Shown: positions 2,815-18,063 of the stretch, piece by piece | How the letters are laid out: every line of letters starts with the position of its first letter | How positions within the stretch are numbered: position 1 is the stretch's first letter | Assembly: GCA_017475005.1 (NCBI GenBank) | Contig: JAFVGI010000024.1 | Coordinates: forward strand, 1-64,000 | Direction of reading: 5' to 3' | Origin: Prevotella sp. | GTDB taxonomy: Bacteria; Bacteroidota; Bacteroidia; Bacteroidales; Bacteroidaceae | DNA length: 64,000 nt | Program-made: the position numbers and the translations under genes | Notes under the pieces: generated by a model | Told to the model about the DNA's origin: nothing | Databases searched by the model: none | What the model saw: only the letters and a program-made list of their open reading frames with translations

Positions 2815-3969
2815 ATGTTTGAAAGAATACTCTCCGCCATTGTATCACTACTGTTGTTGTGCAGCAGCCATGCATTCGCCCAGAAGCGTGATAAATTCGA
2901 GTTCAGTCGCAACCTGCCCGTCTATGCCGACTCACTGATAGCATCCCTCGACTATCCCCTGGCATGGGGCAACAGTAACATCCGCTCCTTCAGCGAATGG
3001 AAGCGTGTGGCGCGCCAGAAAGTGTTTGACTGCATGCTGATGCCGCCCCCTGCGCCATCCAATGGATTTGAGGTGAAAGTGCTCTTTGAAGAACAGCGCG
3101 ACGGTTATACGGCACGCAAGATAGAAATCCGTCTGTCACGTTTCTATACTGTTCCCGCCTATGTACTGATACCAGATGGCAAAGGCCCGTTCCCTGCTGT
3201 CAACTGCCTGCACGATCATGGGGCGCATCTCTTTATTGGCAAAGAGAAGATTATTCGTCCTCTGGCATGTGAGGACACCCTGGTTATTAAGGATGCAGAA
3301 GAATGGCTGCAAGGCTATGGAGGGCAGTATTTTGGCGACTATCTGGCAAAGAACGGCTATGTAGTATTCTCTGCCGATGCCCCCATGTGGGGAGAGCGCG
3401 GTCAGAAAGAAGGTCCTAAACGCGAGCGCTATGATATGATAGCAGGAAATATGATGATGTACGGCATCGACCTGTCAGCCTGGATGACCTACGACGATAT
3501 CTCAGGTACTGAATATCTTGCCTCTATGCCCGAGGTAGATGCCAAGCGTATCGGCTGTACCGGCTGGTCAATGGGAGCCTATCGTGCCTGGATGCTTTCA
3601 GCCCTGTCAGAGCGCATCAAGGTAGGCGCTGCCATTTGTTGGATGGTAACAACAGATGAGCAGATGTCCTTTAAGTACAGTCGTACTGAAAATGGAGGTT
3701 TTGCCAACTGCATTCCAGGCCTGCGTCGTTGGATGGACTATCCGCATATTGCCAGTATCGCCTGTCCAAAGCCGATGCTCTTTATCAATGGTAAGCAAGA
3801 CAAGCTATTCCCTGTCGCTGGTGTAGAAAAAGCATTTGCAGTAATGCATGAGACATGGAAATCACAAGGAGCCGGCAACAACATAGAAACAGAACTATGG
3901 GATATGCCACACAGCTGTCCCAAAACAGCTCAGGAACGTGTCCTCCAGTTTTTCAAGAAACATCTGTAG
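2815..3969 (+). CDS. Secreted alpha/beta hydrolase (esterase-like)
   Basis: 384 aa with a Sec signal peptide (cleavage about residue 22, HAFA/Q). The alpha/beta-hydrolase fold is shown by an oxyanion-hole segment LHDHGAH (132-138), the nucleophile elbow GWSMGAY with Ser252, an acid GKQDKLFP with Asp329 and a histidine in DMPHSCP (His366), so the full catalytic triad is present. Related Bacteroidetes proteins are often called acetyl-xylan-esterase-like or dienelactone-hydrolase-like. An esterase acting on plant-polysaccharide side groups in the periplasm is plausible but not proven. It is a single gene, divergent from the GH43-like operon. Confidence 0.8.
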   Translation: MFERILSAIVSLLLLCSSHAFAQKRDKFEFSRNLPVYADSLIASLDYPLAWGNSNIRSFSEWKRVARQKVFDCMLMPPPAPSNGFEVKVLFEEQRDGYTARKIEIRLSRFYTVPAYVLIPDGKGPFPAVNCLHDHGAHLFIGKEKIIRPLACEDTLVIKDAEEWLQGYGGQYFGDYLAKNGYVVFSADAPMWGERGQKEGPKRERYDMIAGNMMMYGIDLSAWMTYDDISGTEYLASMPEVDAKRIGCTGWSMGAYRAWMLSALSERIKVGAAICWMVTTDEQMSFKYSRTENGGFANCIPGLRRWMDYPHIASIACPKPMLFINGKQDKLFPVAGVEKAFAVMHETWKSQGAGNNIETELWDMPHSCPKTAQERVLQFFKKHL

Positions 3970-4595: not shown

Positions 4596-6248
4596 TTAAG
4601 TAATTTTTAATTCACTTGATATTTTGTTTCGATTCTTGAGTATATATTTACCCCACTTAATATATTCAACCTCAGGAAGCCTTTTTAAGAAGGTATCAAC
4701 GGTATCTTCAAGTATCGCTCCCTCACCCCATTCTCTACGATCAATTATTCGAGCTATATCACGAGGAGCTGCAGGAAATGCAAGATGAGTCATAGCATGA
4801 AGGATTGCCTCCATTTTCATTTTTTCAATTGGATTGTTAGCAACATCTTTATAAGTTTTTGAGCTATTCTTTTGAAATAGGCTTTGTGTAGTTTTTTTTA
4901 CATATTCTATATTCTTAAAAGCCTCTAACTGTGTTGGAGTTATCATTTTCCCAACGACTTCATCAACCCAATCTTGAGATGGTGGCCATTCAACTCCTAT
5001 AGCCTCCAATTGACTTTGCGTAAAACCACCATTAGGAGTTCTTGCAGATTCAATAATATCCTTTGTGAGGACAATTTTAGATTCTGTAGGCTTTATTTTA
5101 TCTATTTTTTTTAACCACTTCTTTTTTGCAGCATACCAGTCGTTCAATTTTAAGGTATCAACAATCTCCCTAAACGACATACCGAAAGTCAAATGAAAAT
5201 CAGATAAAAAAGACGAAATTTCATATACAGTTTTGCGTCCACTATTTTTAACATTTAACAATCTTACATCGCTTTCAATCTGTGGAATATCAATAAATTT
5301 GTGGACATCCATCAATTTAAGTATATTAAAGGCACGAACAGATAATTTCATGTCTTTAATAGGTATATCTAACAATTTAGCAATTTCTGTGTCTATATCA
5401 TCGTTATTATCCTGCAAGATTACCCCTGCAGGAATCATTTCCTTAAGGCGGGTTATTTTTTCATTAAAAAGATTAAGTTGAGCTCTAAGTTTAATATTCT
5501 CCTCTTGAGTTTCTTCATATTTGTTACGTTGTTCTACGAGTATCTCTTTGACTTGTTTAATAGTCTTAACTGTAATTTGCCGTATTCTTTCTTGAGTAAG
5601 TCCATAATCTGATGCTATCTTCTTTCGAGGAATGCCATTAAACGTGTCATAAAGTATTTGATAACTACGATTGGCTAATTTACCTTCTACGCAAGATAAC
5701 GCAGAAAGGCAGAACCATTTAATGTCATAATTTTTTGGCGAGAATTCAGTATCATCAACATCAACAATTTCAATATCATCCTCTTCCTTTTCATCCTCAT
5801 CATCTTTACCAATATAATCGGAGAATAACTCTTCATCAGCATAGCTCTCCCTTATATTGTCGTCGCCTGTCAATCTTCTTAATATCTTTAGATCCCAATA
5901 GTTAACAAAACCAGAAAGGACAGATGATGTTTCATTCAAGAAATCTAAAAGCCATTCTCCTTTACATTCTTGTATTAGTCTCGTAAGCAATACCGCATCT
6001 CCTTTAGCCTGACTTTTGCCAATAGGTGCACAAAGAATACTGTTTGATGTCGGAAACATGTAGCTTTTAAGCGACTTGGTGTCTACAAATTTAAAGTCGC
6101 GCCATATAGAATCTACATCAGCCTCGCTATCAATGTAAATGGTCTTTACTACTTCACCATCATATAACATACAGATATCCCCCTCCTTAATTGGATATGG
6201 ATAATCTGCTAAGTTTTCACTATTCTTATTGATATAATAAACTACCAT
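4596..6248 (-). CDS. BREX-operon accessory with sigma-region-4-like HTH and RpoA-CTD-like domain
   Basis: A 550-aa predicted cytoplasmic protein, last gene of the BREX operon, starting 3 bases after brxL. Visible parts: an N-terminal region of unknown fold (1-145); an acidic linker (149-166); a helix-turn-helix at about 194-235 (IPRKKIASDYGLTQERIRQI) with the layout of sigma-70 region 4; a coiled coil (about 236-272); and a segment at about 297-356 (LSVRAFNILKL, then LLNVKNSGRKTVYEISSFL) that closely follows the helix-hairpin-helix DNA-binding C-terminal domain of RNA polymerase alpha. After that comes GGFTQSQLEAIGVEWPPSQD (407-426) and a possible winged-helix tail (about 470-545). It lacks sigma regions 2 and 3, so it is not a sigma factor. 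Its function is unknown; a DNA-binding or regulatory role in defence is inferred from domains and position. Confidence 0.7.
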   Translation of the reverse strand: MVVYYINKNSENLADYPYPIKEGDICMLYDGEVVKTIYIDSEADVDSIWRDFKFVDTKSLKSYMFPTSNSILCAPIGKSQAKGDAVLLTRLIQECKGEWLLDFLNETSSVLSGFVNYWDLKILRRLTGDDNIRESYADEELFSDYIGKDDEDEKEEDDIEIVDVDDTEFSPKNYDIKWFCLSALSCVEGKLANRSYQILYDTFNGIPRKKIASDYGLTQERIRQITVKTIKQVKEILVEQRNKYEETQEENIKLRAQLNLFNEKITRLKEMIPAGVILQDNNDDIDTEIAKLLDIPIKDMKLSVRAFNILKLMDVHKFIDIPQIESDVRLLNVKNSGRKTVYEISSFLSDFHLTFGMSFREIVDTLKLNDWYAAKKKWLKKIDKIKPTESKIVLTKDIIESARTPNGGFTQSQLEAIGVEWPPSQDWVDEVVGKMITPTQLEAFKNIEYVKKTTQSLFQKNSSKTYKDVANNPIEKMKMEAILHAMTHLAFPAAPRDIARIIDRREWGEGAILEDTVDTFLKRLPEVEYIKWGKYILKNRNKISSELKIT

Positions 6249-6251
6249 CTA

Positions 6252-7715
6252 TTAGAAGAGTTTATTTTCTGTAAATCCTCGTTCTATAATATCTACTACA
6301 GGCATTCGTGTTTTAAACTCTGGATCAATGTTATGACATTGTGTCTTCACGATTCCACGTCTATGAACAGCAGGTTCAAGACAGTAAATACGAAATTCCT
6401 CTTCATTAACATCTTCGATACGACGCCAATGAGGAAAAAGAAGTTTCATATAACCTGTTGCAATACGCTTAATGGCATTACTATCACGAACGTCAGCTTT
6501 CTCCTCAAATTTTACCAACTGGTCAAAGATTAAACCATAGGTATTTTGAGTTCGCATCGAATGAAGTATTTCAGAGAAATACTCTACATTGATAGTCCAA
6601 CCTTTAAAAATCATACTTTTATCAACACGAGGCAATAGCCAGCCTTCAATAAAGCAATGAAATCTATCGAGAAGGGCAGACTCCTGGAAATTCTTAGGCA
6701 AATTATCAAAATACATTTGAGAAAGTGGTACGTTGTTTGCTGATAGCGGAATATTGCCCATTAACATAAGTCCACATTCTGAAGTAAACTCATTATTGTC
6801 AATAGTCGTCTTACCACTTTCCAGATAAGACTTCAAGGCTGCCTGAATTTCTGCCGGTTCTTGAAACACTATTGTCTGTATTTCATCAAATACTGTAAAA
6901 TCGTGGTTCTTTATAATGCCGTTCTGTTGTTTCGCTTTATCAAAGAATAATTTTGCACGTGTCACCTTACCCCCGCTTACTAGCCAACCATATTTTGACA
7001 GATTACCAAACACATATGATTTGCCAGTACCCTTTGGTGCTAATTCAATCACATTCAACCTTGGCTCAATAAATATTAAGAGACGAGTAAGGAACTCAAG
7101 TTTCTGAGTCAATGAGGCAAAGCCATCAGGATCATACTCCATAGCTGACAGTAATAAATCAATCCACTCTTGAGTAGAAAAATATTGTCGAGCCTCAGCC
7201 AAATAGTTTACATCAACAGAACTATAGGGTTTAAATGGCTTGTAGTCAATCATCTGAATATGGCTGGTTTTGCCATTACTATCAGATAATAAACAGAGCT
7301 TAATGATTCCCCAACGTTCTCCATCCACAAAATCACCTGAATTCTTTGAATAAACATACTCAGGAATAATACCCTCTCGAAGTTTAATACCATAGTCTGG
7401 AATAGCGAACTGTCGCTCATTTTTCACGATGTCTATATATACCATAAAACGTGCGAGCAAAGTAACCTCTTCACCATTCTGTAACCGATCTTTGACAATA
7501 CCTTGTTGTGAAGGTATAACCTTATCAAGGAATTGTGTCAAGGCCAGTTTGTCTATCTCTCCTGTCTGAACATTAAGATAACGTTTTAGCAAATAATCCT
7601 TCACGAAAGCAGGGAGATTTCGTCCAGCAAACAGGCTATTTGTTGATGCAGGATCTTTGTATATTGACATAGCAGAAAAATGCTGCCTGATTTTATTGCT
7701 AATTTCGTTTTTCAT
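6252..7715 (-). CDS. brxL: BREX protein BrxL (AAA+ ATPase, short form)
   Basis: 487 aa. An N-terminal domain (about 1-200) contains MIDYKPFKPY and YFSTQEWIDLLLSAMEYDP, hallmarks of the BrxL family. The AAA+ core follows, with Walker A APKGTGKS (226-233), Walker B FTVFDEIQ (273-280), the sensor-like segment LMLMGNIP and an arginine-bearing LLDRFHCFIEGW. In type 1 BREX, BrxL is about 680 aa with a Lon-like C-terminal domain; here the protein ends after the AAA+ module and no Lon Ser-Lys dyad segment is visible. BrxL proteins bind DNA as ring oligomers and are needed for phage restriction. Lies 15 bases after pglZ. Confidence 0.88.
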   Translation of the reverse strand: MKNEISNKIRQHFSAMSIYKDPASTNSLFAGRNLPAFVKDYLLKRYLNVQTGEIDKLALTQFLDKVIPSQQGIVKDRLQNGEEVTLLARFMVYIDIVKNERQFAIPDYGIKLREGIIPEYVYSKNSGDFVDGERWGIIKLCLLSDSNGKTSHIQMIDYKPFKPYSSVDVNYLAEARQYFSTQEWIDLLLSAMEYDPDGFASLTQKLEFLTRLLIFIEPRLNVIELAPKGTGKSYVFGNLSKYGWLVSGGKVTRAKLFFDKAKQQNGIIKNHDFTVFDEIQTIVFQEPAEIQAALKSYLESGKTTIDNNEFTSECGLMLMGNIPLSANNVPLSQMYFDNLPKNFQESALLDRFHCFIEGWLLPRVDKSMIFKGWTINVEYFSEILHSMRTQNTYGLIFDQLVKFEEKADVRDSNAIKRIATGYMKLLFPHWRRIEDVNEEEFRIYCLEPAVHRRGIVKTQCHNIDPEFKTRMPVVDIIERGFTENKLF

Positions 7716-7730
7716 ATGAATCCATTTAAT

Positions 7731-10151
7731 TTAAAACTCAAATAAATCGTCCTCTTGAACACCCGTGCTAACTTTTATCTTCATCACTTGTTCTATTGCA
7801 CCAACACATAATGTTATTTCCTGGCAATTTATATCCAATATCAAATCTTCTGTTTCATAAATATCGTCAGACAAATGGTGTAATGGATATGTCTTTCCAT
7901 TGTAGTTAACATAGGGAACTTCTGTAGATGGTAAGTTTTTAATTTCAAATTGAGCTCTGGGAAGAGAGCCACTAATCTCATATGTCTTCAGTTGTGCTGA
8001 CCAATTTGTAGGAGCAGGAGCACTGCTAATGATAAATATTGGCACTAAGACCTCTTCTGGGGTACATCCTCCATGTGCACCTTGATTAGCAGGAACCTTT
8101 GAACACAAAGACTCATGTTTTAATGCACAAAGAGTTTTACCATCTTCCAATCTGAAATAACTATTGTCTGCATCTTCACTTTTTTTCTCTCTTATCGCAA
8201 CACGACCATGATGGTCACTCTCAACTCCAGAAAGATTTTTGCCATTCACCAGTTGAGAGAGGTATGTTAAACCGTGGTCAGATATAATAGCTATTTTCTT
8301 TCCTATATATAGTTGTAAAATATTTTCAATACTTTTTCTTACTATCTCAATTTCTTTAATGACTGTAAAAGGACTGATGTTGTCGGTACGATGTGCTTGA
8401 GCATCCAAATCTCCAGATTTCTCGAGGATCTGTCCTTCTGGCAAGAGTCGTTGTAGTTCTATTTTATTAATATCTGTTTTGGTTGGCAATTTAGCTCTTG
8501 CTATTTTTACTTCATTTAGATATATCTGCTTATCCTTGTGTTCTGACACAATTTGTTTAACAAGCGGAATCCAGTCTATACCCAATCCATCAACCCAATA
8601 GAAAACTTCTATATCACCACGATCTTTTAATAATGTGTAAACTGTACTGAAACTGTTATACCATAAGTCGAACTTTGATTCAGTTTCATTCAATTGCTGA
8701 ATACAAGAACTTATTTCTTCATTATAACTATTGGACAATTTTGCACGTTTATACTTTTCTATATAATCGTTTATCCAATCAGGCACACTAGCGCTTATAC
8801 CAATACCTTCTTTTGCATAATAATATAAATCTGGGAAGAAATGTTCCAAATCTTCAACTCTTATTTTTTCATTCCCTAACCATTGCAAAGCTATTTCCTT
8901 TTCCTTACGCGTAATACCCGTAAAATATCTCAAGGCACTTGCATAACCCATTCTTTCTGGCAGGTCTTGAAGTATCTTTGCTACTAGACTTTCTGCAGCT
9001 TCCGTAAGAATTACGTTTTGTTGAGCTGCATATTTTAGACAGTATTGACGAATATCCATTTCTGTCAACTCTTCCGTAATATCTGCAGCCAATGCTTCTA
9101 TCAACTCATTTGTTCCATAGTTGGTAGTCGTTCTAAGTATACGACAAAGATATCCTTGACCATTTTCCTTATTATCATAATACCTTGCTAATAGCCAACG
9201 GTCAAATATACTAGGATGACTAAACCATAGTCGAATAAAGTCTTTATAGTTCTCTACATCGTCAATACCAAAATGTTGTTTTACAAACTTAGGAAAACTA
9301 AAACCAGTGCTTACGTCAATTTCGTCTGCAAGAATTTCCCAGTTATTACCATCGCTCATTAAGGGTTGAATACCTCCAAAATCGAGTCCCAAACCATGTG
9401 TTAGAAATTCATATGCATTGTGGCATGTCTCATAACTAAAGGCATTATCTGGCTGAGCAAATACAGAATTGGTAAATATAGAACGAGATTTGCATATTAT
9501 CTGTGGAGAGACTTGTTTTGTACTATCTTTCCATATGTTTAACCATTCACGTATATCATTTACTATTGTGTAGTTCTTCTCCAAACCCTTTACACCAAAA
9601 TCATTTTGGTCTGTCAATATCAGTTTATATGTCAAGTCTTTATCTGCTGATATCAAGCGCCATATATTAATTTGGGTATCATACTTAAAGGTCTCCATCT
9701 TACCTTCCAATCCTACCAAAGGTATATAAATACGTTGGTGTTTTTCTACTCCTTCTTTGGTAGCCTGTATTGCCTTGATAGTTTTTATTAGAGTATCAAA
9801 AGACTTTACAGTATCATTATCATAGAAACGAGCAAGTTCAGAGAAAGGGGCTATTACACAATCATGAGGACTCATCTCCTTGATATGTTCCTCAAGCCTA
9901 TCCTTCAATTCAACCTGGGTAATAATTAAGTCAGGATAGTTCGTGTCTATCCACCTATCAACACTCTCAACATGAACATTTCGTTCACTTTGTAGATATT
10001 CCACGAAGTCATAACAATCACGGAAATTGTCAAACAGTACGAAACGAATTGGATATCGGTCAAGTGTTGCCGCTCCTACCCCTTTTGCCTGCTTGTCCTC
10101 TTCAACACATTGTTTCAGAGCTTCTATATCTTTGAATGGTTCCTTATACAT
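7731..10151 (-). CDS. pglZ: BREX alkaline-phosphatase-superfamily protein PglZ
   Basis: 806 aa. The C-terminal half is the PglZ domain. It carries metal-ligand motifs of the alkaline phosphatase superfamily: YWVDGLGID (519-526, Asp521), AIISDHGLTYL (621-631, Asp625 and His626), a downstream DHHGRVAI, and GAHGGCTPEEVLVPI (691-705, His693). The N-terminal half is helical and BREX-specific. PglZ is the defining protein of all BREX types; its target is not firmly known. The start codon overlaps the end of brxC by 8 bases, which implies translational coupling and a fixed ratio between the two. Confidence 0.92.
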   Translation of the reverse strand: MYKEPFKDIEALKQCVEEDKQAKGVGAATLDRYPIRFVLFDNFRDCYDFVEYLQSERNVHVESVDRWIDTNYPDLIITQVELKDRLEEHIKEMSPHDCVIAPFSELARFYDNDTVKSFDTLIKTIKAIQATKEGVEKHQRIYIPLVGLEGKMETFKYDTQINIWRLISADKDLTYKLILTDQNDFGVKGLEKNYTIVNDIREWLNIWKDSTKQVSPQIICKSRSIFTNSVFAQPDNAFSYETCHNAYEFLTHGLGLDFGGIQPLMSDGNNWEILADEIDVSTGFSFPKFVKQHFGIDDVENYKDFIRLWFSHPSIFDRWLLARYYDNKENGQGYLCRILRTTTNYGTNELIEALAADITEELTEMDIRQYCLKYAAQQNVILTEAAESLVAKILQDLPERMGYASALRYFTGITRKEKEIALQWLGNEKIRVEDLEHFFPDLYYYAKEGIGISASVPDWINDYIEKYKRAKLSNSYNEEISSCIQQLNETESKFDLWYNSFSTVYTLLKDRGDIEVFYWVDGLGIDWIPLVKQIVSEHKDKQIYLNEVKIARAKLPTKTDINKIELQRLLPEGQILEKSGDLDAQAHRTDNISPFTVIKEIEIVRKSIENILQLYIGKKIAIISDHGLTYLSQLVNGKNLSGVESDHHGRVAIREKKSEDADNSYFRLEDGKTLCALKHESLCSKVPANQGAHGGCTPEEVLVPIFIISSAPAPTNWSAQLKTYEISGSLPRAQFEIKNLPSTEVPYVNYNGKTYPLHHLSDDIYETEDLILDINCQEITLCVGAIEQVMKIKVSTGVQEDDLFEF

Positions 10152-13100
10152 ACTTTAGTAGAATGTCTATCACATTACCATCTTCTGAATTAATCATATT
10201 CTCAATAGCTTGACGAAGGTCGTCACTATTGTATATTCTATTTATAGCCTTGGAACGTTTCTTTTTCAACTCTTCTGGACTCGTTGATGGTGGTATTGCT
10301 GGCTGAACGCCTCCTCCAGGAATTACTGGTGGTTGTACAGGTGGTACAGGAGGTACTGGTTTAGTTGATGACATTCGCCAGTCCTTCAATTTATCTTTTA
10401 CCTCTTCTTCTGTCCACATGCCAACTTCACTTTCGAGATGCTCATGTAGATATTTCGTTGCAACCTCAACCTCCTCATCTTTAAGGTTCACGATTTCTAT
10501 ACCCTTCATATAGGTTACGAAACCTTTTTGGAAATTATTTGCTTGAGGAAGCAGCAAATTGCCGAAGTCCGTTTTAAACATATCATATCCACTGATGGTT
10601 TCTTCCAGCAACTTAGAGTCCTTCATACTCTCGGGATATGTAATAACCCTCATCAGATTGTCAACATATTCTTTCATTCCGCCAGAACAGTCCGAACTAA
10701 ATTTCAATGCCCACAATGGATATCCTTTTTGTTTCGAATAGACATGGAGTACAGCCCAACGAGCATCTTTTAAACTGCTTATATCGGAATAACCTGGAAG
10801 TTTATTAAGTCCAAACATTTTAATAAGACCCCTACTAACACGACCAGCCTCCTTACTTTCGAATATAAAATTCAATTTATTACTACTCTTGCCACTCTCC
10901 CATGATTTGAATAACTCAACCACATCATCTACTAGATGTTGAGCTGATCGCTGTTTACCATTTGTATCAAAGATTACATTGATATATTTTCGCATAGCAA
11001 ACGCAACCATAGCCATCGGTGCATAACTCTGGAATAATCCATAAGGAGGTTCTGTCAAACCTATTAGCTTTTCACCTAAATTAAAACTCTGGTTCTTACT
11101 TGTATGTCTTGGACCTAGCCATTCATCAACATAATCACATACCAACTTTAAAGGATGTTGTGGTGATATAGTACTTTTCCATTTTAAATTGTCATCCACG
11201 CTATCTTGTAGTAAGAATTCAACGTGACGGGCAGGTCCACCACAACGGTCCAAAATATCCTGTTTTGTATTATAACTCAAGACTGCATCAACAGTAGCTT
11301 TTACAGACGCCTTTTTCCAATAAGTAGTACTACTCTTCGTTCTAATAGAATCCAATGATTCTGGACCGTTGATGAATATACTTGGAGCAATAGATGCATT
11401 AATTGTGCTTGTCATCTTGCTTCCTACAATTGTCATATCCTCACCATTCAAATAGAACGAAACATTATTTCCTCGCATCTTGTTGACCCATTGCTGTATC
11501 ATCTCCGAAGCCTGCTTTGTGTAGGTTTGATACTGTTGAGGTAGATTATGACTTTGAGCAACCTGAGCATTTGCCTGATAATCTATAAATCTTTCATATT
11601 CTTTTGCCCCCATAGCAGTCTCCATTACCACAAAGGCAATATTCTTATAACGAGAATCAGTACTATTTCTTTCTGCAATATCCTTTAATTGTATTAACTC
11701 TTGGGTATCACGACCTACGAGAATAGCTAAAAACGTTTCATAAGGCTGAGCCGATCGTTTTGCATTTTCTATACGATTCATCAAAGTATGCTCATTACCT
11801 TGAATACTGAAGAACTGAAAATTAAATGGGCGAGCTACTTGTGAAAGGTTCTTTTGGAAAATTGATTCTGCCGTACTGCCAAATTTTATAACCTGGTCTG
11901 TATAGAGGAAACTAGAGGATTTTAGCTGCTCTTTAATTTTTTGAACCTCATCACCTGGCAAAGCTGTAAAAAGGATAGAGAAGTTTCCATTAGGTTGACG
12001 TTGAATAATACTTTTGTCGTTAAAGAAATCAAGTATCTCTATCAGCTGTCCTTCAACTTCTGTACCCAAGAACAGACTTTCTATATTTTCCGTGCTTGGA
12101 GTTACTGTATCACTATTTGCGATATTGTTTAATGCATTCAGTAACAGAATTCCTTTGAATACTTTCAAATAATTCTCACCCTGACTCTCTACAGAAAGAT
12201 GATGGCTATTGTAACGTTCTGTTACAGCACCAAATCTTGAAGCATCACTTTCAAAATATTCCTGAACATAATCCCATAAATAATCAGCTGTAATAGTTCT
12301 GTCTTGGTTGTATGCTTCTTCATCTTCTAAGAAATTCCTTACAGAATCACTAGCGATAAACTCAAACACACTTCGGCTACTTGAACCAGCCTCACGAGCG
12401 TAATATGTTGCCAAGTTGGCTGTACAAGGATGTAATGGGAATAAATTCTTTATATTTTCTTTCGTCTGTTCTGGATCAGTACTTGTAGAACTGAACATAT
12501 CGAGTAGTTCAGGATGGACACCAAAGAATCTTTCTTGACGCTTAGTATAGAGTGTTCGATCAATGATTTTAAACTTCTTCGACATAATCTTAAATGCCGA
12601 AACTGGTTCCATGTTATAAACCACATAGTGATATCTGCCTTTAGTCTTTTCACGCTCTTCTTCCCTAAGCGAATTCAATGCAGACGGATGTGAGATAAAC
12701 AGAAAATATGAATCATTTTCAGAGTTCATCATAGCTTCCGAGATTTCCTGAAGCTGAACCAAAAGTCTTATACCTATAGAAGATGTCATTACTTCTGTAA
12801 ATTCATCCCATATTATTAACAGTCCATTATAGTTTGATTGATTACGAAGTTCTTCCTGTACCTCAAATATCCATTGTTTTAGATTGTTACTCTGTAGTCG
12901 AATGTCATAACCTCCTTTGCGTAATGCTTGACGCACATAATCTAACACATCAGTATCAGCAGCTTTTAACCTCTGCTTTAATTTATTAATATCAGGAGCA
13001 ACACTTGCTAATTGAGCATTTTGTTCAATTAAGTCAGTCCAAAAGTTTGGCTGAATATCGATATGTTGTACATACATATCAAAATCTGTCTGAACAGTAA

Positions 13101-13548
13101 TATTAATTCCTGCCGCAGTCAAGGTACGCTTAATTTCTCTTTGTAACTGTAGGGACAAGTCTTCTTCGTGGGATATGCTTTGCTGGCCATACATATTTAT
13201 AGGGAAGAGGCGTTTTGTCTGACGTAACTGAAGCAACGATTCACGTAAAAGTTCGTACTTCGGTTTACTATATTCATCCTCTACATACTCACGAATGTCT
13301 TCTACAGGGTCGCTCAACAGATGCTGAATTACTGCACCTGCATGTGACTTACCTGTGCCATATGTTCCAGCTATCCATATTGACTTATGCATGTCGGCAT
13401 CATTATTACGCACGGCACGGATAGTTTTCATTAAAATGTCATTGAACTGGTCATTAGCTATAAAAAACTTCCATTCGCCTTGACTCTCTTCTTTGATGTT
13501 ATATGCAGGACGCATGTTATGAAGCGTCACGATCTTACTATAAGGCAT
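10144..13548 (-). CDS. brxC: BREX large P-loop ATPase BrxC/PglY
   Basis: 1134 aa, the size and layout of BrxC/PglY. Walker A is GTYGTGKS (61-68) and Walker B LLIIWDEF (243-250), followed by a helical ATPase lid and a very long C-terminal region. Near the C-terminus there is a proline-rich linker (PVPPVPPVQPP) before a short helical tail. It is the predicted motor or scaffold of the BREX complex. It starts 33 bases after the 144-aa gene and overlaps pglZ at its 3' end. Confidence 0.9.
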   Translation of the reverse strand: MPYSKIVTLHNMRPAYNIKEESQGEWKFFIANDQFNDILMKTIRAVRNNDADMHKSIWIAGTYGTGKSHAGAVIQHLLSDPVEDIREYVEDEYSKPKYELLRESLLQLRQTKRLFPINMYGQQSISHEEDLSLQLQREIKRTLTAAGINITVQTDFDMYVQHIDIQPNFWTDLIEQNAQLASVAPDINKLKQRLKAADTDVLDYVRQALRKGGYDIRLQSNNLKQWIFEVQEELRNQSNYNGLLIIWDEFTEVMTSSIGIRLLVQLQEISEAMMNSENDSYFLFISHPSALNSLREEEREKTKGRYHYVVYNMEPVSAFKIMSKKFKIIDRTLYTKRQERFFGVHPELLDMFSSTSTDPEQTKENIKNLFPLHPCTANLATYYAREAGSSSRSVFEFIASDSVRNFLEDEEAYNQDRTITADYLWDYVQEYFESDASRFGAVTERYNSHHLSVESQGENYLKVFKGILLLNALNNIANSDTVTPSTENIESLFLGTEVEGQLIEILDFFNDKSIIQRQPNGNFSILFTALPGDEVQKIKEQLKSSSFLYTDQVIKFGSTAESIFQKNLSQVARPFNFQFFSIQGNEHTLMNRIENAKRSAQPYETFLAILVGRDTQELIQLKDIAERNSTDSRYKNIAFVVMETAMGAKEYERFIDYQANAQVAQSHNLPQQYQTYTKQASEMIQQWVNKMRGNNVSFYLNGEDMTIVGSKMTSTINASIAPSIFINGPESLDSIRTKSSTTYWKKASVKATVDAVLSYNTKQDILDRCGGPARHVEFLLQDSVDDNLKWKSTISPQHPLKLVCDYVDEWLGPRHTSKNQSFNLGEKLIGLTEPPYGLFQSYAPMAMVAFAMRKYINVIFDTNGKQRSAQHLVDDVVELFKSWESGKSSNKLNFIFESKEAGRVSRGLIKMFGLNKLPGYSDISSLKDARWAVLHVYSKQKGYPLWALKFSSDCSGGMKEYVDNLMRVITYPESMKDSKLLEETISGYDMFKTDFGNLLLPQANNFQKGFVTYMKGIEIVNLKDEEVEVATKYLHEHLESEVGMWTEEEVKDKLKDWRMSSTKPVPPVPPVQPPVIPGGGVQPAIPPSTSPEELKKKRSKAINRIYNSDDLRQAIENMINSEDGNVIDILLKYV

Positions 13549-13581: not shown

Positions 13582-14016
13582 TTACTTTTTAGGTTTAATA
13601 AAATGATGAATAATAGCTTCTCGGAATTCATTCCGTACTTCTGAATCCTGGAGCAACTCCCATAAGTCATCATCAAGACATGCATACTCAACATTTTCAC
13701 GAAGAAATTTTGCAGAAGGTGTAGTTCGTGTCCTTTTTCCTTTGATAAAGTAGAATTCCTCACTTCCCATATAATAGTAGGGGTAAACAGATGGAGTAAT
13801 AGTGCCTTTGCTAAAATTCTTGAATAAACTGTTATATGTTGCTATTAAGGACTCTGAGTACAAAATTTTATTAGCTTTAATAGAACCATTTTCAATGCCA
13901 CTAAAAATAGCTAGCATCATAACAGCCTTAGCAATGTTGACTTGACCATGAGCCCTATCAACATTCATTGAAAGCAACAAATTCTTATAATACGATATTT
14001 TAAGTCCCTGACTCAT
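13582..14016 (-). CDS. Free-standing protein resembling the phosphorothioate-DNA-binding module of ScoMcrA-type enzymes
   Basis: 144 aa, between brxP (4 bases upstream) and brxC (33 bases downstream). The pattern LSMNVDRAHG, then MMLAIFSGIENGSIKANKI, SESLIATYNSLF, a hydrophobic PYYYMGSEEFYFIKGK and a helical tail matches the N-terminal module of HNH restriction enzymes of the ScoMcrA/SprMcrA kind (typically LRVDRAHG..PHKPLLLLAVLELI..G.I..N.I), which recognises sulfur-modified DNA. Here the HNH nuclease half is absent and the usual PHKP is replaced by NIAK. The family match is from memory of the motif pattern. It could instead be a general DNA-backbone reader. Confidence 0.55.
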   Translation of the reverse strand: MSQGLKISYYKNLLLSMNVDRAHGQVNIAKAVMMLAIFSGIENGSIKANKILYSESLIATYNSLFKNFSKGTITPSVYPYYYMGSEEFYFIKGKRTRTTPSAKFLRENVEYACLDDDLWELLQDSEVRNEFREAIIHHFIKPKK

Positions 14017-14020
14017 CTAG

Positions 14021-16522
14021 TTATATTACAAGTTGTTTTAGCACGGTTATCGGATTTAAGTCTTCCCTAAGGGTAATACTATCAAGTCCCATATTCAATT
14101 CTGCAATCAAAACTCTATTTGAAGCAGAATTAAGTTGTCTAAGCAATTTCTCAAATACAGATTTTCCAATTCCGAATTCCCTAGCTGGGCCTGTCTTTAT
14201 TCCGTCACCATAAAAATCTGATACACGAAGAGACTTTATATTCTTTTCGGAAGCATACTTATAAAGTGAGTACGCCAATGCAATTTCCGAAAGTTCATTA
14301 TGTGGCATTCGTACAAGTGTTTTACCATCTTCAGAATAACCCTGTTGTAGAATATCCCCTATAGGAGAATAATTAAATATCTGCATGAACCCACCTATAG
14401 CATAGGTTATTGTATTCTTTGAGCCTTCAAATTCAGAAAGTGCCAATTCATCCAGCAACTGTTTACTAAATGTTTGACCTGGCATGATTGTATTCATAAA
14501 CCATCTAGATAATGCTGAACCATAAGCATAATTTGTCCAAATAGTTTCCCAAACTAAATCGTGCTCATCTTCATAATAATCTATACAGAATTGTCCAAAT
14601 TCAGTCATTTCTTTTTTCGAATTGATTATTCCTGCATCAGACAACCACGCCTTAAAACTTTGTTCTTGTTTATTACCTAGTGAGTTACTTGTCCAGAATC
14701 CCTCTGGGTCTGCGAGATACTCTTGCAACCACTCTTCGTGAATTCCAAATGTTCCAATACGGGATATTCCTCCTCCTTTTGTACTTGTTTCCATATTTGT
14801 TATTAAAGAATTTGCCACTATACATCCATTATCATGAAATTGCAAACATTTATGACAATGTATACATTTTTGTTTATCAATCACAACTTTGGGATAGACA
14901 GACAGAGCTCCTGTAGGACATTCCACCTCACATCCTTCACAATTAATACAATAAGCACTTTTATAGATTACTCGTTTTAAAAGTTGAACGACCAAGGGAT
15001 CATTAACTTCATGAAGAGTAAACTGATAGTCTGTTTCAGATTTATATAGTACATCATAGCGATATGTAGTATTGTTAAATCGCAATTCACCTGTAGTTTT
15101 GTTTTTTTGACGAACAATCGTATAATCACATAAAACAGGCAGCCAAGTCTCTATATTCTTCTTTGCATTGCTTACATTTGCAACAAAGGTTGGAAACTGT
15201 TTGGGGAAAAGAACTCTTGTTTTAGATCCAACGCTATTTCCGCTTGCACGAAGTTTCCACTTATGATCTTTAATGTACTCATCAAGATTTGGTATATGTC
15301 GTTGCTGTGACCAATTAACTAATCTAGAGAGAAATGGTTCTAATTCCTTCTTATATTTTGTATTAACAATCATATCATCCCAAGGAGATGAAAATGGGCA
15401 TATCAAGCAACCAACTCTTGGTTTTCCCAGTCTGTATGCCTCATTGATGGGAAGGTTCCATTCAAAAAGATAAAGAAAGATTTCTGCAGTATTCCAATGG
15501 AGTATTGGTCTTGCGTTGATTACAGTATCATGTTTTACCCCTCTACCTATTCTGTCGTAATTACTTCTCATTACACTTTCTTCAGAACGAACACCTTCAA
15601 AAGCTAAAGATTTAGCCTGTTTGTTTGTTCCTTCGATTTTTAAAGAGCGATAAAGAGGTGCTGTCTTCATGATTGCACAACACCATCTATGCTTATCACT
15701 TGGAGTTCCTATCTTATCCCAGTAATTAAGAACATTTTCGTGATTGCGAGCCAAAGAAAATTTTAAGTCAGGGAAAAGTTTATGATAATGTTCTTGTATT
15801 TGTTCATAAAGCTGCAAAGAAGGAGGCAATTCATAACCTGTATCACTATAGATTACTTCAAATTCCGTACTTGGGATTGCACGTGTGCAAAGATCAAGCA
15901 CGACCTGAGAGTCTTTACCGCCTGAGAAAGATGCAAGAAACTTATCTATTTTGGTAGTATGAAAGACCTTCTTGCCTTGCTCTTCTGCTACTTCGAGTGG
16001 CATTATATCAAAACTATCGCAATCTTCTTTCACAATAGCCATCTTCTTCTTGGTCTTTTTCTCCATGCGTTTCGCCAAGGCCTCATAATCCATCTGATTT
16101 GCAGCCACGCGTTTTACACTCTTTCGTGCGCCAGCATATTGGATAAAAGTTTCACGAATGAACTCTATAGCTTCACTCTCTAAAAGGAACATGAAGTCAT
16201 AATTTTTCTCCAGCATCTTCTTCACGTTTACTGGTTTTAACTTCATCTTTTCCTTGCCAGACTGAAAAACTATGGTAGCAGCATCATATATATTGGCACC
16301 CTTAGCTTCAAACATTAACTCACCCATATACCAATATTGCTTATTGACAGCCCATAGTAAAGGTTCTTCAGAATGAGGATATTTCCAGCCAAGTTCGTTC
16401 AACTTTAACAAGTCAAGTTCTTCCCAGAACACAGGTCGTGGAGATGTACCAAGCGTACCCTCCACAATGCGAGAGTGAAGCAACACTCCGCCAGTCTCTT
16501 TGTCCCAGGTTATTTTATACAT
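14021..16522 (-). CDS. brxP: BREX type 4 protein BrxP: PAPS-reductase/DndC-like, ferredoxin and DUF4007 fusion
   Basis: 833 aa, first gene of the operon. An N-terminal 190 residues precede a PAPS-reductase/ATP-pyrophosphatase domain with the PP-loop FSGGKDS (199-205), SDTGYELP, RWCC (Cys281, Cys282), ARPILHWNTAEIF and GCLICPF (Cys372, Cys375). These four cysteines suit a 4Fe-4S site as in DndC and ferredoxin-linked archaeal PAPS reductases. A ferredoxin module follows: CxxCxxCxxxCP (Cys525, 528, 531, 535) and Cys553, 556, 559, 567. Residues from about 585 match the DUF4007 pattern (GTFGIHEEWL to the end). This domain set with brxC, pglZ and brxL defines type 4 BREX. No cysteine desulfurase or PglX methyltransferase is nearby. 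Confidence 0.85.
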   Translation of the reverse strand: MYKITWDKETGGVLLHSRIVEGTLGTSPRPVFWEELDLLKLNELGWKYPHSEEPLLWAVNKQYWYMGELMFEAKGANIYDAATIVFQSGKEKMKLKPVNVKKMLEKNYDFMFLLESEAIEFIRETFIQYAGARKSVKRVAANQMDYEALAKRMEKKTKKKMAIVKEDCDSFDIMPLEVAEEQGKKVFHTTKIDKFLASFSGGKDSQVVLDLCTRAIPSTEFEVIYSDTGYELPPSLQLYEQIQEHYHKLFPDLKFSLARNHENVLNYWDKIGTPSDKHRWCCAIMKTAPLYRSLKIEGTNKQAKSLAFEGVRSEESVMRSNYDRIGRGVKHDTVINARPILHWNTAEIFLYLFEWNLPINEAYRLGKPRVGCLICPFSSPWDDMIVNTKYKKELEPFLSRLVNWSQQRHIPNLDEYIKDHKWKLRASGNSVGSKTRVLFPKQFPTFVANVSNAKKNIETWLPVLCDYTIVRQKNKTTGELRFNNTTYRYDVLYKSETDYQFTLHEVNDPLVVQLLKRVIYKSAYCINCEGCEVECPTGALSVYPKVVIDKQKCIHCHKCLQFHDNGCIVANSLITNMETSTKGGGISRIGTFGIHEEWLQEYLADPEGFWTSNSLGNKQEQSFKAWLSDAGIINSKKEMTEFGQFCIDYYEDEHDLVWETIWTNYAYGSALSRWFMNTIMPGQTFSKQLLDELALSEFEGSKNTITYAIGGFMQIFNYSPIGDILQQGYSEDGKTLVRMPHNELSEIALAYSLYKYASEKNIKSLRVSDFYGDGIKTGPAREFGIGKSVFEKLLRQLNSASNRVLIAELNMGLDSITLREDLNPITVLKQLVI

Positions 16523-16523
16523 A

Positions 16524-16583
16524 TCATCATGTTTCTTTTTGGTTAATAGTTAACGCAGAGAAATACAGTAGAAAACATGATGA
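16524..16583 (-). promoter_or_regulatory. Hairpin abutting the brxP start codon
   Basis: TCATCATGTTT (16524-16534) is the exact reverse complement of AAACATGATGA (16573-16583). The loop itself carries a second hairpin, GTTAA-TAG-TTAAC, around 16542-16554. The stem ends one base from the ATG at 16520-16522, so it could gate translation of brxP. Confidence 0.6.
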
Positions 16584-16631
16584 GACTTGAATGCATATGC
16601 ACGAGAAAGCGCACCCTCGTCCCTTGCATAC

Positions 16632-16756
16632 TTGTACTCTAGCCGTCGCCAAACAGGCTTGCATTACATATACAAGGAAAGGGTACGCCTATAGGGGCGT
16701 ATCCCAATCCCACGAGGTGTAATGCATCTTTTAGTTTGGCGACTATTTGAGTACAA
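16632..16756. repeat. 125-bp nested inverted repeat in the BREX leader
   Basis: Four nested complementary pairs, all in register: TTGTACTC (16632-16639) with GAGTACAA (16749-16756); GTCGCCAAAC (16645-16654) with GTTTGGCGAC (16734-16743); TGCATTACA (16660-16668) with TGTAATGCA (16718-16726); and GGGTACGCC (16681-16689) with GGCGTATCCC (16696-16705). The first two pairs are separated by a 5-base mismatch on each side. No TANNTTTG promoter lies inside, which argues against a classical invertible promoter. It reads as one long rod-like RNA or cruciform structure. Confidence 0.7.
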
Positions 16757-16943
16757 ACCTCATCAGAATCTTCGATACTGAATGATTACCCGCAAAAATC
16801 CTGCAAAGCAGCTTTTCTATATCATCCCTTTGAACATGGGTCGAGCCTGCTTCCGCTCGGCATAATTGATGCAAGCACCATTCTGCCCTCGCTCAACCGC
16901 AGTCTTCGTCGCTACGAAAAAGACAATAGCCACAATGCAGTTG

Positions 16944-16975: not shown

Positions 16976-17350
16976 AAAACACCCTGTTTTTTTAGTTTAG
17001 AGTTGATAGTTTAGAGTTTAGAGTCAGTTTTATAGTATAGAGTTGAGAGTTTTAGTATTCAAAAAATTAGTTTTTTGCGTTTTATCTCTCATCTCTCCCA
17101 TGATTTCTCGGGAAGCCCAGCTACATGGGCGTTTGAGCACGGGAGAGATTATTTTCATCTCTCCCTAATCTCTCCCTAATCCCCCCCTTTTTATTTTTAC
17201 TTTAAAGTATAAACTTTTAAACTGCCTCTCAACTTTCAACTCTACACTCTAAACTTTGAATAAAAGGGAGAGATGGAGGGAGAGATAAAGGGGGGAATGG
17301 ATTTTCCAAAATGTCCATAAATAGGGGCTTTGTGAGGGTTGAAGGGGGAG
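16976..17350. repeat. Direct and inverted repeat cluster upstream of the BREX promoter
   Basis: 17000-17055 is built from TTTAGAGTT/TTGAGAGTT/TAGAGTCAGTT units shared with other intergenic sites. ATCTCTCCC (17091-17099) pairs with GGGAGAGAT (17141-17149), with an inner GCCCA/TGGGC pair at 17115-17130. ATCTCTCCC and C-run units at about 17158-17187 are mirrored by GGGAGAGAT and G-run units at about 17264-17299. No gene: the open frame at 17249-17569 is a product of the repeats. Confidence 0.6.
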
Positions 17351-17891: not shown

Positions 17892-18063
17892 AGTGAGGTA
17901 TCCCCAAGACACCTCACTTATACCTCACTTACACCTCACTGGATACCTCACTCTTATCATGATGAAATAAGTGAGGTCTGAGTGAGGTATATCTGACATA
18001 CCTCACCCGTCTCTATCGCCCTATTTATCGTGGCTGGAGCCTTACCAAGTGAGTAAGTGAGGT
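17892..18063. repeat. Iteron-like array of ACCTCACT in both orientations
   Basis: ACCTCACT occurs at 17911, 17922, 17933 and 17945 (steps of 11, 11 and 12 bases). The reverse AGTGAGGT occurs at 17892, 17970, 17981 and 18056, and ACCTCAC again at 18000. Helical-turn spacing is typical of binding sites for a repeated regulator or replication initiator. No initiator gene is adjacent. It lies 180 bases or more upstream of the metG promoters. Confidence 0.65.

Follow-up and report, generated by a model that had tools for sequence, protein, structure and literature searches.

What does a protein that appears to join two DNA-contacting parts of the transcription machinery do at the end of a phage-defence operon? 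The question is raised by the last gene of a six-gene operon on the minus strand of the window (the whole 64,000-nucleotide stretch of Prevotella sp. DNA analysed), whose product of 550 residues is referred to here as ACC. The genes follow one another in the order brxP, a gene of 144 codons, brxC, pglZ, brxL and ACC (Table 1). Because PglZ4, BrxC, BrxP and BrxL were all identified by PADLOC and NCBIfam, the locus was assigned to BREX type 4; for ACC itself PADLOC found nothing up to E = 1. The 144-residue protein gave a profile match to SBDHga1 (PDB 8h0l) with E = 2.9e-27. Sulfur-binding domains of the SBD kind read phosphorothioate DNA. Relatives of this small gene were found in 16 of 22 other BREX-4 loci, the misses being L005 and L065, whose contigs stop short of the position, and L068, L073, L074 and L077; in L075, L076 and L078 it sits behind brxL. 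Type 4 is the phosphorothioation type of BREX (PMC12839542 and PMC11931770), and the type 4 section of PMC12839542 does not name such an SBD-like gene as a component. The same section places a cysteine desulfurase in 56% of type 4 neighbourhoods; none was recognized by eye among the ORFs of at least 80 residues between positions 3969 and 18248.

Table 1. Features of the BREX-4 locus, with positions in the window
Feature	Position	Strand	Basis
Structured leader RNA 5' of brxP	16560..16780	-	folding, covariation, covariance model
brxP (4Fe-4S motifs, PAPS reductase domain; DUF4007 matched weakly, under its cut-off)	14021..16522	-	Pfam, PADLOC
144-aa gene, SBDHga1-related (PDB 8h0l)	13582..14016	-	profile match
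brxC	10144..13548	-	PADLOC
pglZ, BREX-4 type	7731..10151	-	PADLOC, NCBIfam
brxL	6252..7715	-	Pfam, PADLOC, NCBIfam
BrxL C-terminal tail GFTENKLF	6255..6278	-	comparison of 22 BrxL proteins
ACC gene, last in the operon	4596..6248	-	ORF, Pfam
ACC 1-132, conserved acidic N-terminal domain	5853..6248	-	alignment, genome searches, PDB search
ACC 133-172, acidic linker	5733..5852	-	alignment
ACC 194-235, sigma-region-4-like helix-turn-helix with LTQERIRQ	5544..5669	-	Pfam, profile comparison
ACC 236-287, coiled-coil-like stretch	5388..5543	-	by eye
ACC 288-356, RNA polymerase alpha-CTD-like domain	5181..5387	-	Pfam, PDB search, profile comparison
ACC 386-550, C-terminal variable region, two pieces	4599..5093	-	alignment, similarity

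The search turned up nine distinct loci that encode ACC or a homologue sharing its N-terminal domain: the window, L003 (where the contig end truncates the protein), L004 (the same record as L063), L005, L006, L036, L037, L062 and L064. At all nine the gene begins 3 nt past the stop codon of brxL. An earlier note on this DNA had proposed ACC as a BREX accessory and suggested checking its co-occurrence with brxL; since the gene lies directly behind a BREX-4 brxL at every locus found, and not mainly away from defence loci, that reading stands. Among 249 genomes drawn from the genus, 18 carried a BREX-4-type BrxC and four gave a strong match to the N-terminal domain (E ≤ 2e-74); these four are all among the 18, each with its match behind brxL. 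ACC is not a core component of every type 4 locus: of the 17 same-genus BREX-4 loci that have brxL, it is present at four and absent from 13. Of 399 genomes drawn from the family, 246 gave a match, but nearly all matches listed were to the alpha-CTD stretch in RpoA-sized ORFs, and the N-terminal domain appeared among the matches listed only in the window's own genome, G074 and G164. A profile of the sigma-4-like part and coil matched only the window's own genome among 395 genomes of the phylum at E = 1e-6, and searching IMG/VR with the ACC alignment (two patterns, both in the N-terminal domain) returned 137 stretches, none a relative. Thus, in the genus and family draws (matches listed) and in IMG/VR, the domain was not found away from BREX-4 loci, and ACC is a clade-limited accessory rather than a core part of BREX-4.

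The earlier note had seen strong resemblances to sigma region 4 at residues 194-235 and to the alpha C-terminal domain at 297-356. Both segments fit Pfam matches, to Sigma70_r4 at 195-235 and RNA_pol_A_CTD at 288-349, and the two differ in strength. The alpha-CTD match has E = 4e-10 and 39.7 bits, well above the cut-off of 23.8, whereas the sigma match, with E = 1.5e-4 and 21.7 bits, falls just below its cut-off of 24.1. When ACC and four homologues were compared, the alpha-CTD passed the Pfam cut-off in four of the five (L005 fails, at 18.3 bits); Sigma70_r4 passed in none, yet was listed at the corresponding place in all five (E = 4.9e-5 to 0.013). Profile comparison with the same genome's own proteins gave a probability of 97% (E = 2.4e-11) for the ACC alpha-CTD against RpoA and of 75% (E = 2.5e-5) for the sigma-4 part against the RpoD-like sigma factor. 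The family profile searched against PDB sequences found alpha subunits with a best E of 1.4e-10 and sigma factors weakly, with a best of 0.006. From the Pfam scores and the comparisons with the genome's own RpoA and RpoD-like factor, the presence of an alpha-CTD-like domain is secure at the level of sequence, and that of a sigma-region-4-like helix-turn-helix is likely.

The residues expected to touch DNA are largely kept. Equivalents of R265, G296 and K298 (E. coli numbering), which, together with N268, we take to be DNA-contact positions of the alpha-CTD, are retained in all nine aligned rows, and that of N268 in seven, the exceptions being L004 and L005. All nine homologues carry LTQERIRQ as the putative sigma recognition helix, which differs at two of eight residues from LTRERVRQ of the genome's RpoD-like factor. 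When ACC was examined as a possible RNA polymerase alpha subunit, Pfam matched the alpha-CTD and gave no match to the N-terminal assembly domain, and the NCBIfam rpoA models matched by their C-terminal part only. Likewise, Pfam and NCBIfam gave no match to sigma-70 region 2 (core and -10 binding), region 4 alone being matched, below the Pfam cut-off.

The best conserved part of ACC, which the earlier note passed over, is the acidic N-terminal domain, whose family was not recognized and which is described here for the first time. Among six proteins its mean pairwise identity is 73% (range 56-94%), compared with 60% for the sigma-4 part, 54% for the alpha-CTD and 44% for the coil. Its net charge of -6 to -10 speaks for contact with protein over contact with DNA. 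It matched no PDB sequence up to E = 10. A further copy of the domain, of weak similarity (26-28% identity across 50 residues, with E between 9e-4 and 3e-3), may be present in homologues of the L036 type. Three weak matches outside BREX in the 249 genus genomes (E = 4e-4 to 4e-3, ∼38 residues), two of which look by eye like PP2C/RsbW-type signalling proteins, were taken as chance. Separately, the C-terminus of BrxC in L073 (9658-9714, minus strand; ALLTRLCDECGEWLLD) was noticed post hoc to resemble ACC 86-105 over 20 residues (E = 4e-4), a possible common docking motif that we treat only as a lead.

A candidate partner for this domain lies immediately upstream. Comparison of 22 BrxL proteins, from the nine ACC loci and the 13 same-genus BREX-4 loci without ACC (L066 and L067 among the latter being near-identical), showed a C-terminal tail of the GFTENKLF type, also reported here for the first time, in 9/9 of the former and 0/13 of the latter. 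BrxL has 487 residues where ACC is present and 473-479 where it is absent, in which case it stops before the tail. The peptide is identical at seven of the nine loci and reads GFTDNKLF in L062 and DFTENKFF in L064. All eight tail codons vary in nucleotides between loci, five of them only synonymously, though much of this variation merely separates two subgroups; that the codons vary while the peptide stays points to selection on the peptide and not, for example, on a ribosome-binding site for ACC. The tail is our best clue from sequence comparison, and suggests that BrxL and ACC interact. All BrxL proteins with the tail belong to a single clade and are 86-95% identical to that of the window; for the closest proteins without it the figure is 82-83%. 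Since tail and ACC both fall within this clade, shared descent alone could explain their coincidence, and they may have been gained once.

The part of ACC between N-terminal domain and C-terminus has relatives in phages. An excisionase-like helix-turn-helix followed by ACC-like sigma-4, coil and alpha-CTD sequence was found in L087, a phage contig from human faeces that is also present in IMG/VR as L089, in the IMG/VR contigs L090-L094 and in a prophage-like locus, L041, of which L091-L094 are relatives (L093 is truncated at its contig end). L038 has the sigma-4, coil and alpha-CTD parts without the excisionase part; among these proteins it alone was assigned on a Pfam basis, the others by similarity to ACC and alignment. 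In PHROGs, the L087 and L041 proteins match excisionases, and those of L087, L041 and L038 weakly match a sigma factor family. The IMG/VR search with the sigma-4-alpha-CTD alignment returned at least 600 rows, so that further contigs like L090 may exist. The module thus extends beyond BREX, and the view of the fusion as a build bound to BREX needs dividing: the module alone occurs in phage and prophage-like proteins, whereas ACC as a whole was found at BREX-4 loci.

Beyond the alpha-CTD the homologues diverge, even though BrxL is 93-95% identical within the window's group. They are 488 (four loci), 529, 550, 653 or 720 residues long, L003 being truncated, and since the C-terminus varies and is nearly absent from the four shortest, it is not essential. 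The L003 module around LFPSQ is 79% identical over 67 residues to a 775-residue protein of L075, a distant BREX-4 locus whose BrxL is 54% identical to the window's; there the gene is the second after brxL, behind a 209-residue SBD-like gene. The module of L004 shares 53% identity over 115 residues with the same L075 protein and 50% with a 634-residue protein of L039 that has an SBD-like front. L039 is called Ssp-like because its neighbouring genes start like SspB and the next gene of L128. Residues ∼460-540 of the window's ACC match L075, L039 and L040 at 30-36%. Judged by these similarities, the C-terminus of ACC is a mosaic with modules common to other BREX-4 and Ssp-like loci, a pattern reported here for the first time. 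Such a mosaic is what phosphorothioation systems would show if they exchanged reader modules, and the common pool suggests that they do. A HARE-HTH winged helix, suggested by earlier literature, was looked for at the ACC C-terminus, and Pfam gave no match up to E = 1; residues 460-542 are similar by eye only.

Mosaic proteins whose C-terminal modules recur in one another and in ACC lie at 7711-10038 in L075, 11027-12559 in L076, 11278-12312 in L077 and 993-2897 in L039, those of L075-L077 having in common a short N-terminal motif, LSPILEY. The slot after brxL varies among same-genus BREX-4 loci (L065-L073, L075-L078): in L065 and L067 it holds a RecF/DndD-like ATPase alongside two small partner proteins, elsewhere such mosaic proteins, other genes or nothing obvious.

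At the other end of the operon, the stretch upstream of brxP is predicted to fold into a structured leader (-90.7 kcal/mol, z = -8.06, with none of 200 shuffles as good). It has no Rfam match up to E = 1; Rfam matches at 17137-17316 and 17926-17996, to miRNA models far below their gathering scores, were rejected. The exact pattern of its central hairpin occurs in 10 of the 249 genus genomes. In an alignment of these ten copies, from which the scored structure was itself derived, 96.7% of pair cells are standard, both partners have changed in 15 of 55 pairs and covariation scores 0.290, values reached by none of 500 shuffles; further pair types (31) were matched by 202 of the 500 and so show no excess. 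Nine of the ten copies precede defence genes by PADLOC or BLAST: BREX-4 brxP in the window, L076, L077 and L109, a type II methyltransferase in L108, a DrmD-like helicase in L111, an HKD-Snf2 type protein in L114, and a type III methyltransferase in L117 and, ∼1 kb on, in L116. The tenth, L115, has no PADLOC match, and the start of its broken-up first gene resembles that of the L114 gene.

A covariance model built from the ten copies found relatives in 49/249 genomes, those ten included. Among 20 weaker copies inspected (within L128-L147), 18 precede restriction-modification or Ssp genes, namely 10 type II methyltransferase-nuclease pairs, three SspB genes, three other type II methyltransferase-like genes and two type III methyltransferases, the other two copies being L130 and L142; PADLOC, run on the genes of nine of the 20 loci, agrees, the rest were assigned by near-identical protein starts, and in L132 the second gene alone was resolved. 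Together, 27 of 30 inspected copies stand before recognizable defence genes (18 assigned via PADLOC or BLAST, the rest via near-identical protein starts), one before a broken relative and two (L130, L142) before genes of no clear kind. The leader is possibly a common control element of defence operons in the genus; we found no description of it in the non-preprint open-access literature searched. It is not tied to ACC, since the model has no match at L062 and L102-L105. At L103 (2523-2801, plus strand) and L104 (1909-2145, minus strand), visual inspection places a small HTH gene directly before brxP and a tyrosine-recombinase-like gene in front of it.

Starting from what was seen directly, that is, the domains, the place of ACC in the operon, the co-occurrence of tail and gene and the sharing of C-terminal modules, we infer docking, DNA binding and targeting, and read ACC as a DNA-binding adaptor docked on BrxL that would combine promoter-type DNA grips with exchangeable readers (probability ∼0.5). 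ACC would be an accessory subunit of one BREX-4 clade, with an acidic N-terminal domain that docks on the BREX machinery, the GFTENKLF tail of BrxL being the likeliest site. The sigma-4-like and alpha-CTD-like domains, with the coil between them, would grip promoter-type DNA at a -35-like element and an A/T-rich minor groove, the exchangeable C-terminal modules would add a second reading function, and ACC would direct BrxL, or the complex as a whole, to selected DNA or keep it there, possibly at the active promoters of incoming phage. A more far-reaching version, which we consider doubtful, makes ACC a promoter-recognition arm: clipped to the BrxL tail, it would scan promoter-like DNA as RNA polymerase does and load BrxL on newly transcribed phage DNA, with C-terminal readers exchanged between BREX-4 and Ssp. 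A specificity swap by reader exchange was not described for BREX in the open-access papers searched, preprints excluded. The adaptor reading bears on how BREX picks out phage DNA: promoter grips of the RNA polymerase type on a domain tied to BrxL would tie defence to transcription signals in a direct and testable way, and a tail of eight residues keeps a test of the ACC-BrxL link small and cheap.

ACC could instead control transcription, either of its own operon or of phage genes, acting with or against RNA polymerase, and be kin to the phage regulators that carry the module. The build of the L087/L089, L090, L041 and L091-L094 proteins, an excisionase-like HTH joined to sigma-4-coil-alpha-CTD-like sequence, is that of a regulator, and the retained DNA-contact residues of ACC fit such a role. 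A general operon regulator should, however, not be missing from 13 of 17 same-genus BREX-4 loci with brxL, and because the sequence upstream of brxP differs between ACC loci and the ACC gene closes the operon, this reading was lowered as first choice. Other candidates for control stand before brxP, the small HTH genes at the ACC loci of G164 and G074 (L103 and L104) and the structured leader in the window, and a plain regulator leaves the BrxL tail and the conserved N-terminal domain unexplained. We hold it tentatively, as a somewhat unlikely alternative.

The presence of both promoter-contact surfaces in one chain, with no recognizable sigma core-binding parts or alpha N-terminal domain, would also suit a decoy, to which phage proteins that attack sigma region 4 or the alpha-CTD bind and so trigger BREX-4; the sigma-4 match is only moderate, though, and the DNA-binding residues, needless in a decoy, are kept, which makes this improbable. 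Finally, ACC might have no defence role and be a regulator from a mobile element that merely travels with this clade of BREX-4. Confinement to one clade, a variable C-terminus and the presence of sigma-4-alpha-CTD modules in phages are what such a hitch-hiker would show, but an N-terminal domain 56-94% identical among six homologues, a constant spacing of 3 nt at nine loci and a conserved BrxL tail peptide are not, and we regard it as very improbable.

Among DNA-binding proteins of BREX loci, regulators of the BrxR type are WYL-type proteins encoded at the operon head; ACC, predicted to bind DNA as well, differs from them in both respects. The phage and prophage-like proteins of L087, L090, L041 and L094 share with ACC the sigma-4, coil and alpha-CTD-like sequence in one chain, but have an excisionase-like N-terminus in place of the BREX-specific domain, and no BREX genes were noticed beside them in the stretches read. 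No paper on a sigma-4-alpha-CTD fusion in BREX was found in the non-preprint open-access literature searched, and the type 4 section of PMC12839542 describes no ACC-like accessory. The earlier note knew of no described BREX component with this build; within that literature this holds for the fusion, but not for the alpha-CTD-like part: PglW of BREX-2 is described as having an alpha-CTD-like helical domain followed by three winged helices (PMC12839542). PglW is the nearest precedent; its kinase and nuclease modules and its ATPase-like end have no Pfam or PADLOC match in ACC, whereas ACC has a sigma-4-like domain and an N-terminal domain of its own and belongs to type 4. Helix-turn-helix domains of sigma type are also described at the N-terminus of BrxL (PMC12839542) and in some DndH proteins (PMC10853773), and ACC resembles these as a further case in BREX or phosphorothioation defence; there, as described, they lie inside the ATPase proteins themselves and are not joined to an alpha-CTD-like domain. 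Set beside these systems, ACC is a BREX accessory of new build.
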